DNA from: Oscillospiraceae bacterium
GTDB lineage: Bacteria; Bacillota; Clostridia; Oscillospirales; Oscillospiraceae
Assembly (NCBI GenBank): GCA_017435245.1
Contig: JAFSFK010000085.1
Coordinates: forward strand, 1 to 12,686
Direction of reading: 5' to 3'
Length of the DNA: 12,686 nucleotides
Below the pieces are notes generated by a model. That model saw only the letters and a list, made by a program, of their open reading frames with translations, had not been told where the DNA came from and did no database searches. Shown here one piece after another: positions 6,275-10,169 of the stretch; position 1 is the first letter of the stretch, and each line of letters begins with the position of its first letter. The position numbers were made by a program, and so were the translations under genes.

Positions 6275-6643
6275 TCAGTTTGAATTGGGAACCGGTGTTT
6301 TATCCATCATAAAGCAGCAGGGTTCCACATCTTTTTTTCGCAGATATCCTGCACCCCAGTCCCGCATTGCCACCAGAACAGGCATCAAGCTGCTGCCCAA
6401 TGCGGTGAGAGAGTATTCCACTTTTGGTGGAATTACGGGATAAACCTCACGGTGCACAAGCTTTTGGGATTCCAGTTCACGCAGCTGCTGGGTCAGCATC
6501 TTCGGGGTTGCGCCGGAGATCAGTTTTTTTAGTTCGGAAAAACGGAGCTTTCCTTCGGACAGATGCCACAAAATCAGGGCCTTATATTTGCCGCCGATCA
6601 GTTCCAAGGTAGCTTCCACAGGGCAGCAATCATTGGTTTTCAA
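6275..6643 (-). CDS. HxlR-family winged-helix transcriptional regulator
   Basis: This 122-residue protein is a complete HxlR/DUF24 MarR-like DNA-binding protein. The signature runs [20 protein letters not shown] (7-26), then [20 protein letters not shown] (33-52, recognition helix region) and [10 protein letters not shown]. The wing carries the conserved [13 protein letters not shown], followed by the dimerisation helix around MRDWG. The start is TTG at 6641-6643, with GGAGG 7 bases upstream. An upstream ATG at 6682 would put the Shine-Dalgarno inside the gene and lacks one itself. Cys7 occupies the N-terminal position that senses electrophiles or disulfide stress in relatives such as YodB and HypR. 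Here Cys6-Cys7 and a second pair, Cys109-Cys110, are present. It is upstream of degV and divergent from copA. Control of either neighbour is inference. Confidence 0.92.
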
Positions 6644-6650
6644 CTCGACA

Positions 6651-6655
6651 CCTCC
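6651..6655 (-). promoter_or_regulatory. Ribosome binding site that sets a TTG start for the HxlR gene
   Basis: On the minus strand GGAGG stands 7 bases before TTG (6643-6641). This gives the N-terminus [20 protein letters not shown], matching the usual family boundary, and rules out the ATG 13 codons upstream. Confidence 0.8.
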
Positions 6656-6672
6656 ACAGTATCCAAAAAGAT

Positions 6673-6681
6673 AGTATAGCA
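6673..6681 (-). promoter_or_regulatory. Extended -10 promoter for HxlR-degV
   Basis: On the minus strand TGCTATACT is a good extended -10 element (TG, one base, then TATACT). No convincing -35 lies 16-18 bases upstream, as expected for extended -10 promoters. Transcription would start near 6666, about 23 bases before the TTG start. Confidence 0.6.
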
Positions 6682-6697
6682 CAAATTAGTGCATACT
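6673..6697. repeat. Imperfect inverted repeat, candidate operator between the HxlR gene and copA
   Basis: The left arm AGTATAGCAC (6673-6682) and right arm GTGCATACT (6689-6697) are complementary except for one extra A in the left arm, around the A/T-rich spacer AAATTA. The repeat covers the -10 of the HxlR promoter and ends on the first base of the proposed copA -35. Size, symmetry and position fit a dimeric winged-helix binding site. No canonical CopY box (TACANNTGTA) was seen in the region. Confidence 0.55.
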
Positions 6698-6781: not shown

Positions 6782-9259
6782 ATGGAACTGAAATTTAATG
6801 TTACTGGAATGACTTGTGCGGCTTGTTCAGCCCGGGTCGAAAAAGTAACTGCTCAGGTACCGGGAGTTACAAAGGTTGAGGTTAACCTGCTGGCAGGAAA
6901 AATGACTGTGATTGCAGATAGTGACAATGTGGTACCGCAAATTATCTCTTCCGTACAGAACGCAGGCTACGGTGTATCCATTCCCGGCAAAAAGTCTGAA
7001 AAGGAACCACCAAAGACTGACACGGCTCTTACGGATATGAAGAAGAGAATCGTTGGTTCTGCCATAAGCCTTATTATTTTGATGTACTTCACAATGGGCC
7101 ATATGATCGGATTGCCGGCACCTCATTGGTATCACGGGACAGAAAATGCGCTGGTAGCGGCATTGCTGCAATTCTTTTTGACCTTGCCGCCGATCTATTT
7201 GAACCGTGTCTACTATTCCCGTGGTCTTAAGGCTCTGTGGCACAAAGCACCCAATATGGATTCATTGATCGCTGTCGGTTCCGGTGCAGCACTGATTTAC
7301 GGTGTTGCGGCCCTGTTCCGTATTGCGTATGGAGTTGGTCATGGCGACTGGAACACAGTCAGCTTTTACAGCGAGAATCTGTATTTTGAGTCTGCAGCGA
7401 TGATCGTTACACTCATCACACTGGGTAAATTCCTGGAGACAAGAGCTAAGGGAAAAACGGGGGATGCCATTCGAAAGCTAATGGACATCAGTCCCAAAAC
7501 AGCAACTGTACGCCGTAACGGCGTTGAGGAAAGCATTCCTGTGGAGCAGGTGCAGCTTGGAGACACGGTGATCGTACGTTCCGGTGGCAGGATCCCGGTG
7601 GACGGCACGGTCGTTTCCGGACGGGGTGCCGTGGACCAAAGTGCGCTTACCGGCGAAAGTATACCGGTTGAAAAGGAGCCAGGCAATGCGGTTGCTGCGG
7701 CATCCATCAACACCGAGGGATATCTGGAGATCCGGGCAGAAAAAATCGGCGAGGACACTACACTGGCCCAGGTGATCCGTATGGTGGAGGAGGCCGGTGG
7801 ATCGAAAGCGCCTATTGCCAGACTTGCGGATAAGATCGCCGGTATATTCGTTCCGGTGGTAATGGCCATCGCCGTGATCGCATTCGCCGTTTGGCTTATC
7901 GCTGGTCAATCTCTTGAATTCTCTTTGACTACTGCTATAGCGGTTCTGGTGATCTCCTGCCCCTGTGCATTGGGTCTTGCCACACCGGTAGCGATTATGG
8001 TGGGAACCGGTCGTGGTGCACAGCTTGGTGTCCTGTTTAAAAATGCTGAGGCTCTCGAGAGTCTCCACAAAGTCGATACGGTGGTTTTGGACAAGACCGG
8101 TACCCTCACAAAAGGAAAGCCTGCTGTAACAGATATTATTCCGAATGGAATTTCAGATGGTGAATTGCTAAAATTTGCAGTATCATTGGAGTCCAGCTCT
8201 GAGCATCCTTTTGCTAAGGCGATCATGGAAAAAGCAAATACGGTGTCGCCTTTTGCTGTTTCTGATTTTGAGACCTTGCCGGGGCAGGGTGTATCTGCTA
8301 TAATAAATGGAAAGAGATACTTTGGTGGAAATCATCGTCTGATGGACCTGCTGCAAATTGATGTTCCTGAGTATCGGGAATTTACGCAAGCTGGTAAAAC
8401 GCCGCTTTATTTCGCCTGCGAGGATAAAGACTACCTTGGTGCAATCGTTGCAGCAGATGTATTAAAAGATGACTCTGTGGAAGCTGTGCAAGCGATGCTG
8501 CAGCTGAAAATGGATGTTGTGATGCTTACCGGAGATAATGACCAAACTGCAAAGGCGATTGCAGCAACGGCCGGTATTTCTCACATAATCGCCGATGTTC
8601 TGCCTGGTGATAAAGCAAGTGCCATCAGGAAATTGCAGGAGCAGGGAAAAAATGTTTTGATGGTTGGCGACGGGATCAATGATGCTCCGGCACTGGTAAC
8701 GGCAGATGTTGGTATGGCCATTGGAGCTGGTACGGACATTGCCATTGAGTCTGCGGATGTGGTGCTGATGAACAATTCCCTGAAGGGTGTTGCTGATGCG
8801 GTCGCACTGAGTAAGGCGACCATCCGCAATATTCGTCAGAATCTGTTTTGGGCATTCTTCTATAATTCATTGGGAATCCCCATTGCCGCTGGCGTTTTGT
8901 ATCCTGCTTTCGGGATCCAGTTAAGCCCAATGCTGGGAGCTGCTGCAATGAGCTTGAGTTCTGTTTTTGTTGTTACAAATGCCCTGCGTCTTCGCTTCTT
9001 TAAGAAGAAATCTACTGACCAACAGGGGATTAGATCTGACAAACCGAAGGAGGAAATTAAGATGGAAACTGTGATTAAAGTCGAAGGTATGATGTGTCCG
9101 CACTGCAAGGCCAGGGTGGAAAGCGTTTGTAAGCAGATTTCCGGTGTTGTGGATGCCGTGGTGGATCTGCAGGAGAAACAAGTTACCGTCACCGGTGAAG
9201 CGTCAGTTGATGCGCTAAAGAAGGCAATCGTTGATGCAGGGTATGAGGTTATCGACTGA
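6782..9259 (+). CDS. copA: Copper(I)-exporting P1B-type ATPase with N- and C-terminal metal-binding domains
   Basis: This 825-residue membrane ATPase pumps Cu+ (or Ag+) out of the cytoplasm. In order it has an N-terminal heavy-metal-associated domain (GMTCAACSARVE, Cys12/Cys15), two leading spans, two further spans, and the actuator loop with TGES (290-293). The transport-site SCPCALGLATP is at Cys393-Pro-Cys395. The phosphorylated Asp437 is in DKTGTLTKG, followed by the SEHP motif (His475-Pro476) and TGDN and GDGINDAPAL (629-638). Tyr694-Asn695 and MSLSS (Met723-Ser727) in the last spans are the Cu+-type P1B-1 signature. After a charged linker, a second metal-binding domain (GMMCPHCKARVE, Cys772/Cys775) ends the protein and may also be translated alone. 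GGAGGTGA precedes the ATG. It is divergent from an HxlR regulator. No CopY or CsoR gene is nearby. Confidence 0.96.
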   Translation: MELKFNVTGMTCAACSARVEKVTAQVPGVTKVEVNLLAGKMTVIADSDNVVPQIISSVQNAGYGVSIPGKKSEKEPPKTDTALTDMKKRIVGSAISLIILMYFTMGHMIGLPAPHWYHGTENALVAALLQFFLTLPPIYLNRVYYSRGLKALWHKAPNMDSLIAVGSGAALIYGVAALFRIAYGVGHGDWNTVSFYSENLYFESAAMIVTLITLGKFLETRAKGKTGDAIRKLMDISPKTATVRRNGVEESIPVEQVQLGDTVIVRSGGRIPVDGTVVSGRGAVDQSALTGESIPVEKEPGNAVAAASINTEGYLEIRAEKIGEDTTLAQVIRMVEEAGGSKAPIARLADKIAGIFVPVVMAIAVIAFAVWLIAGQSLEFSLTTAIAVLVISCPCALGLATPVAIMVGTGRGAQLGVLFKNAEALESLHKVDTVVLDKTGTLTKGKPAVTDIIPNGISDGELLKFAVSLESSSEHPFAKAIMEKANTVSPFAVSDFETLPGQGVSAIINGKRYFGGNHRLMDLLQIDVPEYREFTQAGKTPLYFACEDKDYLGAIVAADVLKDDSVEAVQAMLQLKMDVVMLTGDNDQTAKAIAATAGISHIIADVLPGDKASAIRKLQEQGKNVLMVGDGINDAPALVTADVGMAIGAGTDIAIESADVVLMNNSLKGVADAVALSKATIRNIRQNLFWAFFYNSLGIPIAAGVLYPAFGIQLSPMLGAAAMSLSSVFVVTNALRLRFFKKKSTDQQGIRSDKPKEEIKMETVIKVEGMMCPHCKARVESVCKQISGVVDAVVDLQEKQVTVTGEASVDALKKAIVDAGYEVID
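9047..9053 (+). promoter_or_regulatory. Internal Shine-Dalgarno within copA
   Basis: AAGGAGG, 8 bases before an in-frame ATG at 9062, is as strong as any ribosome binding site in the window. It lies inside the linker between the ATPase core and the C-terminal metal-binding domain, where it encodes part of the stretch KPKEEIK. Confidence 0.7.
9062..9259 (+). CDS. Possible independently translated CopZ-like copper chaperone (in-frame 3' end of copA)
   Basis: The last 65 codons of copA, starting at ATG 9062, encode exactly one complete heavy-metal-associated domain, METVIKVEGMMCPHCKARVE through DAGYEVID. This is the size and architecture of free CopZ chaperones, which shuttle Cu+ to CopA. The strong Shine-Dalgarno at 9047-9053 makes internal initiation plausible. 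Fusion of a C-terminal metal-binding domain to CopA occurs in clostridia, so the domain alone does not prove a separate product. The alternative is that the site is a relic of an ancestral separate copZ gene whose upstream stop was lost. This entry overlaps copA in the same frame and is an inference. Confidence 0.5.
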   Translation: METVIKVEGMMCPHCKARVESVCKQISGVVDAVVDLQEKQVTVTGEASVDALKKAIVDAGYEVID

Positions 9260-9325: not shown

Positions 9326-9454
9326 ATGTTTTCTGTTAAGTATGTTCGTGGTCACATTCAGGTTTATGATTTGAGAGGGAATTTCCTGTTTTCTGCGGAT
9401 TCAGAACGGGAGCTTAGAGAGGAAATGATGGAGTATGCGCAATCTGCGGCTTGA
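9326..9454 (+). CDS. Small hypothetical protein, 42 residues
   Basis: This short open frame starts MFSVKYVRGHIQVYD and ends EEMMEYAQSAA. AAAGGAG at 9311-9317 is 8 bases before the chosen ATG; an in-frame ATG two codons earlier (9320) would leave only 2 bases. The sequence suggests a two-strand hairpin (FSVKYVRGHIQVYD, turn LRGN, FLFSAD) followed by an acidic helix (SERELREEMMEY). There is no signal peptide or membrane span. I do not recognise the family. It overlaps the truA start by 20 bases in another frame, so translation of the two is likely coupled. The good ribosome binding site and non-random predicted fold support a real gene. Confidence 0.65.
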   Translation: MFSVKYVRGHIQVYDLRGNFLFSADSERELREEMMEYAQSAA

Positions 9455-10169
9455 TCTTTGTTATGAAGGTACCCGATACCGTGGATGGCAGCGCCTTCCC
9501 GGTGCTGAAAATACCATACAAGCAAAGCTGGAAGCGGCACTTTCCCGAATTTTGGAAGAGCCTATTGAAGTCAGCGGCAGCGGGCGTACGGATGCCGGTA
9601 CCCACGCAATGCGGCAGGTTGCCAATTTCCATTGTAATTCTACAATGCCTGCGCAGCAGATCCTTGAACAGCTGCGCAGGTATCTTCCGGAGGATATCGG
9701 CATATACTCCTGCAGAGATGTATCCGAAAGATTTCACGCACGTCTCAATGCCAAGACAAAAACCTACCGCTATCGGGTGTGGAACAGCCAGAACCCCTGT
9801 GTGTTTCAGCGAAAATTCGTTTACATTGATCCACGGGAACTGGATATGGAGAAAATGCGGTCGGCAGCGAAGCTGTATTTAGGACAGCATGATTTCTCTG
9901 CTTTCTGCGCCAATAAGCGAATGAAAAAATCAACGGTTCGCTATATCCAAAGCTTTGAAATCCAACGGGATGATAACGAAGTTGTATTTATAGTTACAGG
10001 AAATGGTTTTTTGCACCATATGGTTCGTATTATGGTGGGCACACTGCTGGAAGTCGGCAGGGGAGAGCGACAGGTGGATTCTGTTTCGGCACTTTTTGGG
10101 GCACTCCGTGCTGATGCCGGTGAACTGATCCCTGCCTGCGGTTTATGCCTTATGGAGGTAAACTATTGA
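9435..10169 (+). CDS. truA: tRNA pseudouridine(38-40) synthase TruA
   Basis: TruA isomerises uridines 38-40 in the anticodon stem-loop of many tRNAs. The 244-residue protein is full length. It begins MRNLRLDLCYEGTRYRGWQR and holds the catalytic Asp53 in SGSGRTDAGTHA. It also has FHAR (100-103), TYRYRVW with the conserved Tyr111, and the C-terminal GFLHHMVRIMVGTLLEVG. The ATG at 9435 is the first possible start, because TGA at 9426-9428 closes the frame. Its Shine-Dalgarno is mediocre (AGAGAGG, 12 bases away), which fits coupling to the overlapping small upstream gene. Its stop overlaps the start of the next gene by two bases. No promoter is obvious, and the cluster may be read from copA, which has no visible terminator. 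Confidence 0.95.
   Translation: MRNLRLDLCYEGTRYRGWQRLPGAENTIQAKLEAALSRILEEPIEVSGSGRTDAGTHAMRQVANFHCNSTMPAQQILEQLRRYLPEDIGIYSCRDVSERFHARLNAKTKTYRYRVWNSQNPCVFQRKFVYIDPRELDMEKMRSAAKLYLGQHDFSAFCANKRMKKSTVRYIQSFEIQRDDNEVVFIVTGNGFLHHMVRIMVGTLLEVGRGERQVDSVSALFGALRADAGELIPACGLCLMEVNY
10154..10158 (+). promoter_or_regulatory. Ribosome binding site that sets a TTG start for the ArsC-like gene
   Basis: GGAGG inside the truA 3' end stands 7 bases before TTG at 10166. The competing in-frame ATG at 10145 would place this site inside the coding region and would add residues that do not fit the family N-terminus. Confidence 0.8.

Follow-up and report, generated by a model that had tools for sequence, protein, structure and literature searches.

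A conserved in-frame internal start in clostridial copA, predicted to yield a free CopZ-like chaperone from the C-terminal domain of the pump

Can one copA gene supply both a copper pump and, from its C-terminal end, a free copper chaperone? In E. coli, CopZ is made from copA by programmed ribosomal frameshifting, according to PMC7558416 and PMC10187127 (citing Meydan 2017 and Drees 2017). The question was raised for the copA gene of a 12,686-nucleotide stretch of an Oscillospiraceae assembly (GCA_017435245.1, contig JAFSFK010000085.1; hereafter the window, meaning the whole stretch), in which an earlier note had proposed a second, CopZ-like product started inside copA. The features concerned were as follows:

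6275..6682, minus strand: gene adjoining copA and divergent from it, which we take to encode an HxlR-type regulator; synteny marker (ORF list)
6782..9259, plus strand: copA, P1B-type Cu(I)-exporting ATPase, 825 aa (ORF list; PF00122, PF00702 and PF00403, the last in two stretches)
6794..6970, plus strand: N-terminal HMA domain of CopA, residues 5-63 (PF00403)
9047..9053, plus strand: internal Shine-Dalgarno (SD) AAGGAGG within codons Lys756-Glu757-Glu758 (sequence; third-base fixation; logo)
9054..9061, plus strand: spacer AAATTAAG, 8 nt between AAGGAGG and ATG (sequence)
9062..9064, plus strand: internal start codon ATG, Met761 of CopA, in frame (sequence; clade-A junction start codons)
9062..9259, plus strand: copZ frame nested in copA, predicted 65-aa single-HMA metallochaperone (PF00403; NCBIfam)
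9086..9106, plus strand: GMMCPHC metal-binding loop (MxCxxC) of the C-terminal HMA domain (sequence)
9326..9454, plus strand: 42-aa ORF between copA and truA, overlapping the truA start
9435..10169, plus strand: gene downstream of copA, presumably truA-like; synteny marker (ORF list)

The window CopA scored 616 bits against TIGR01511 (copper-translocating P-type ATPase, cut-off 397) and carried an HMA domain at its N-terminal and at its C-terminal end (two stretches of PF00403). The AAGGAGG motif lies exactly 8 nt upstream of the in-frame ATG (9047-9053 and 9062), as the earlier note had read it, and the frame from this ATG to the copA stop has 65 codons plus the stop. The note's description of the 65-residue product as precisely one complete CxxC domain was borne out: the product aligned to profile positions 1-62 of 62 of PF00403 (HMA; 59.7 bits, cut-off 24.8) and contains GMMCPHC, with the MxCxxC motif of CopZ/Atx1-type chaperones in the form MMCPHC. 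Clear sequence matches to solved CopZ and CopA domains were obtained (e.g. CopZ 6ff2, E 4e-11). The best NCBIfam model, CopZ_AFE_1862, gave 70.3 bits, below its cut-off of 85 and short of the curated CopZ equivalog level. The window's own genome, an incomplete assembly (62.7%), yielded no standalone copZ. The adjoining HxlR-type gene may be a regulator of the copper locus, which would be unusual.

Related copA genes were collected from genus to class. Among titled records, most of the closest genes came from assemblies labelled Oscillospiraceae or Clostridia, and three of the assemblies bear the name Candidatus Faecousia. Within the genus, 136 genomes were searched and 118 had copA at threshold. 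The genus, order-level and titled records gave 214 loci, from which eight without a copA match were dropped (L031-L034, L211-L214: standalone copZ loci). Removal of duplicates reduced the remaining 206 to 163 distinct copA genes, and five genes without a C-terminal HMA domain (L173, L181, L077, L029, L210) were dropped to leave 158. These were divided into clade A (92 distinct genes, at least 63% identity to the window copA) and clade B (66 distinct genes, 48-56% identity). A class-wide search of Clostridia covered 391 genomes and found a match in 334; the class sample taken from it comprised 110 loci (86 fused, 20 split and 4 in which no C-terminal HMA domain was found). Thirty of these loci were given by the search and 80 were hand-picked among the matches listed, namely those reaching the C-terminal domain or with stops there, so the ratio of fused to split genes is not a population figure. 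The total fused set held 244 distinct copA genes with a C-terminal HMA domain, whose proteins were roughly 47 to 73% identical to the two query sequences.

An internal start was counted as present when an ATG, GTG or TTG was preceded by an SD with an anti-SD energy of -5 kcal/mol or better, a lenient limit that 26.6% (clade A) and 23.4% (clade B) of other in-frame ATGs also pass. The pattern for the 16S tail had no match in the window genome and was found in 1 of 40 genomes; a generic anti-SD was therefore used, and the window's own anti-SD is assumed.

By this measure, a start with an SD was present before the last HMA domain in 230 of the 244 distinct fused genes. The earlier note had named as refuting evidence a loss of the AAGGAGG/ATG pair, at synonymous positions, from close relatives with the C-terminal domain retained; the opposite was seen. 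Before the first C-terminal HMA domain, the start was present in 84 of 92 clade-A, 58 of 66 clade-B and 83 of 86 fused class genes; in one clade-A gene beyond the 84 (L144), it sits before the second HMA domain. At -8 kcal/mol or better, the junction starts of clade A passed in 97.7% of 86 scored cases, against 3.8% of 2049 other in-frame ATGs, and those of clade B in 79.4% of 63, against 2.5% of other in-frame ATGs; in the class set, 66 of 86 fused genes passed. The mean anti-SD energy in clade A was -10.7 at the junction, -3.3 at other in-frame ATGs and -9.5 at the genes' own starts (81 scored). Among the 84 clade-A genes, the junction start codon was ATG in 81, GTG in two and TTG in one. 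Where the ATG lies one codon nearer to the domain or further from it, the SD shifts along (e.g. L045, L080). Between the end of the NALRL-like motif and the internal Met, the linker is 14 to 44 residues long; the signal thus keeps its place relative to the start codon and not relative to the membrane part. Judged on these alignments, the internal-start phenomenon is wider than the window gene.

Genes with two or more C-terminal HMA domains were found seven times. An SD with ATG stood before the last HMA domain, and before none of the earlier ones, in five of them (L144, L101, L104, L252, L263), and wherever a start exists the predicted product is a single domain. The other two (L058, L028) had no SD plus ATG start at any C-terminal HMA domain. 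L266 was excluded from the tandem count, its second pattern match lying beyond a stop.

Genes coding for CopZ by itself were examined at 12 standalone loci of congeners, and 11 of the 12 lie at the window's own locus. Upstream of these syntenic genes stand ThrE-like, DegV-like or HxlR-like genes, and downstream the 42-aa ORF, TruA-like or ArsC-like genes, each whole or in part (names that we take from recognition of the proteins). The HxlR-type gene is kept beside copZ in L326, L327 and L331 and as a fragment in L212. The truA-like gene is on the same stretch in L211, L214, L325, L326, L327, L330 and L331; L211 has its downstream block in inverted orientation and at a greater distance, and in L328 and L329 only the upstream synteny genes are seen. 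Remnants of copA were found in L326 (CopA residues 1-23 and then, within 10 nt, residues 692-756, out of frame with copZ) and in L212 (residues 625-673, in frame with copZ). Weak copA traces were found in L213 (E 0.005) and L331 (E 0.009). No copA trace was found in the other 7 of the 11 syntenic loci, so there we infer a former copA. Each of the 11 syntenic genes has an intact frame with an ATG preceded by an SD (-10.3 to -12.1 kcal/mol). Across 28 unsaturated pairs, of which three involve the non-syntenic L332, the standalone set had a median dN/dS of 0.18 and by this ratio looks constrained; 6 further pairs were saturated. The twelfth locus, L332, has none of the synteny markers; its SD is weak at the aligned ATG (-3.0) and better two codons on (-8.9).

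The 42-aa ORF has matches of 62-69% identity in 6 of the 12 standalone copZ loci (L213, L214, L325, L326, L330, L331) and is likely, from these matches, to code for a conserved small protein. Short HMA proteins of G028, G013, G098 and G100 (36-49% identity) have a hydrophobic N-terminal stretch and were judged by eye to belong to another family. A protein database search with the 65-aa query gave 641 matches at E 1e-10 or better. Among the best 120 of the 641, 96 have a length of 64-66 aa, and most lie on short contigs (a few kb at most). They may reflect starts chosen by gene callers within truncated copA genes and were therefore not counted as evidence.

The start was absent in 14 of the 244 fused genes, with nine changes of state on the tree, and it is therefore dispensable in some lineages. 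Coupled loss of the ATG and the SD on the tree was not significant (median p 0.125). In clade B, 5 of 5 genomes that lost the start hold copZ at the old locus, against any standalone copZ in 5 of 19 keepers, one of them (G129) with a non-syntenic copZ (Fisher 0.006); G117 (mixed copies) and G024 (copA cut at the contig end) were left out of the count. Four of the five losers form one clade, so these amount to about two events. In clade A, a standalone copZ (at least 55% identity) was present in 1 of 7 loser genomes and in 0 of 22 keepers examined, with G031 left out, since its second copA has the start. These counts are suggestive of compensation of the lost start by a standalone copZ, clear by count in clade B only. 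G029 has both a start-less copA (G029:C88, L014) and a standalone copZ at a window-type locus (G029:C71, L214).

The earlier note had also asked whether relatives carry a stop between copA and copZ. They do: the class sample held 20 split loci with copA, a stop, and copZ with an SD (L221, L237, L305-L307, L309-L323). Of these, 18 fall in one supported clade, and L221 and L237 lie among fused genes with weak support.

Could the SD be a by-product of a conserved Lys-Glu-Glu linker peptide with a chance Met? The earlier note had allowed that a Lys/Glu-rich linker might yield a purine-rich stretch by chance, and for the single gene this stood: KEE and QEE are frequent in clade A, and synonymous resampling with the peptide fixed reached the observed energy about once in four per gene, a result that was not significant (median p 0.26; p<0.05 in 3 of 86 clade-A genes). 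A column-rank test was therefore adopted, in which all columns share one tree, so that the other Lys/Gln/Glu columns of the clade-A alignment are a fair control. For third-base fixation, the SD codons of clade A ranked 1, 2 and 3 among the 59 K/Q/E columns (0.988, 0.966 and 0.915; median of the columns 0.64), which has a probability of 3e-5 if columns are exchangeable; in clade B, two SD codons ranked 1 and 4 of 47 such columns. Fixation at exactly the SD codons contradicts a by-product, and across genes the chance reading did not stand. In the sequence logo of the 84 clade-A genes with the start, each base of AGGAGGA (positions -14 to -8) occurs at 92-100%; the A-rich positions -30 to -15 hold 0.07-0.70 bits per base. 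The first SD codon encodes different residues (K, Q, E, R, V, L), yet 83 of 84 genes have G as its third base. The SD can also fall in a different reading frame with much the same spacing (e.g. L023, L215), as it does in many class genes; the same bases are thus kept under different residues.

The folding of the RNA also speaks against a by-product. The 70 nt around the internal start fold at a mean of -6.7 kcal/mol, against -20.9 at 1988 other in-frame ATGs, and the initiation region is folded more weakly than its synonymous recodings (-6.6 vs -9.8, p 5e-14, kinship ignored). Third-position GC is 0.42-0.50 from -60 to +33, rises to 0.62-0.68 deeper in copZ and is 0.64 over the body of the gene; at copA's own first codons it is 0.59, a much smaller dip than at the internal start. 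At the last HMA domain of the clade-A genes without a start there, 6 of 7 fold at -13 to -26 and the other, L160, in which the ATG is changed to ACG, at -11.6; the bodies of these genes are also richer in GC (0.64-0.83), which confounds the contrast in structure. Taken together, the fixation ranks, the prevalence among fused genes, the logo and the weak structure indicate an SD and start codon conserved beyond the needs of the protein, and we consider a mere by-product extremely unlikely.

The split loci give some ground for seeing the SD and ATG as a disused relic of a copA-copZ gene fusion, as copZ in the relative clade follows a stop and has its own SD. A relic should have decayed like the linker before the SD, which is little conserved, but the signals are kept almost throughout the fused set despite its wide range of protein identity, and we hold a relic to be very unlikely. 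Pausing of ribosomes at SD-like sites has been proposed, and the run lies after the last transmembrane part and ahead of the last domain; there it might hold back elongating ribosomes, giving the membrane part time to fold before synthesis of the last domain. The chance that pausing accounts for the site seems to us exceedingly small, as it leaves unexplained the start codon at fixed spacing, the GTG and TTG substitutions, and the SD and ATG kept at loci without copA. Free CopZ might also come from frameshifting of the E. coli type that releases the N-terminal domain, the C-terminal site being incidental. E. coli does so (PMC7558416 and PMC10187127), but in the window copA a strict slippery heptamer after the N-terminal HMA domain is absent (codons 58-110); any such heptamer was found in 23 of 92 clade-A genes, with nothing conserved, and we give this account almost no weight. 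Proteolysis could be an alternative source of free CopZ.

An evolutionarily maintained, in-frame internal start that would make free CopZ is by far the best explanation, and we hold it with high confidence. It agrees with the earlier note in its main point, an internally started CopZ-like product from copA, a reading that the conservation of the SD and start codon supports. Ribosomes starting at 6782 would make full-length CopA with an HMA domain at both ends. Other ribosomes would start independently at the SD and ATG (9047-9064), which lie in the linker, a stretch of weak structure ahead of the last HMA domain. Internal initiation would yield a free 65-aa CopZ able to carry Cu(I) to the pump, and the cell would gain by drawing from one mRNA a larger amount of soluble chaperone than of pump. 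That the internal start is translated, that its product binds copper and hands it to CopA, and that the cell gains in this way are inferred from comparative sequence data. The frame is unbroken in the 244 sampled genes, which suggests that the fused form is also used.

In E. coli copA(Z), as predicted for the window, one copA gives a pump and a free chaperone that is one of its HMA domains. There the N-terminal domain is released by a frameshift, after which an early stop comes; in the window it would be the C-terminal domain, released by in-frame internal initiation with an SD and ATG of its own. Meydan is said to have described in-frame internal starts in bacterial genes in 2019. Such starts are listed for infB, clpB, mrcB, arcB and others in PMC11005335. 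Like these, the window copA would have a second start within the gene that gives an N-terminally truncated isoform; unlike them, its product is a complete single-domain protein that resembles a known stand-alone family, is conserved in a large part of a class and can apparently persist after the host gene is lost. Separate copA-copZ pairs have the same two proteins in the same order and a ribosome-binding site before copZ, as in the window, with a stop in between that the window copA does not have. A search of an open-access library turned up no report of CopZ made by internal initiation, which is no proof of absence.

More broadly, we think it quite probable that in much of the class Clostridia copA is a dual gene, whose free CopZ would come from the pump's C-terminal domain by a route convergent with the E. 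coli frameshift and mechanistically opposite to it, and that the nested copZ can outlive a decayed copA, giving a new gene from inside an old one. If true, free CopZ may seem missing from genomes with this copA only because annotation shows one long frame, and two unrelated translational tricks have evolved for obtaining pump and chaperone from one gene. The losses, splits, tandem domains and decayed hosts form a large natural data set for how internal starts are kept.

The internal start was also seen in named isolates of Pseudoflavonifractor, Butyricicoccus, Anaerofustis and Blautia and in a Massilimicrobiota assembly (-5.7 to -11.7; L081, L088, L092, L094, L096, L108), so it is testable in isolates. 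The SD is moderate in several named isolates (Butyricicoccus -5.7 and -5.9, Pseudoflavonifractor -6.2), and Blautia parvula NBRC 113351 (L096) has a strong internal site at -11.1 kcal/mol.
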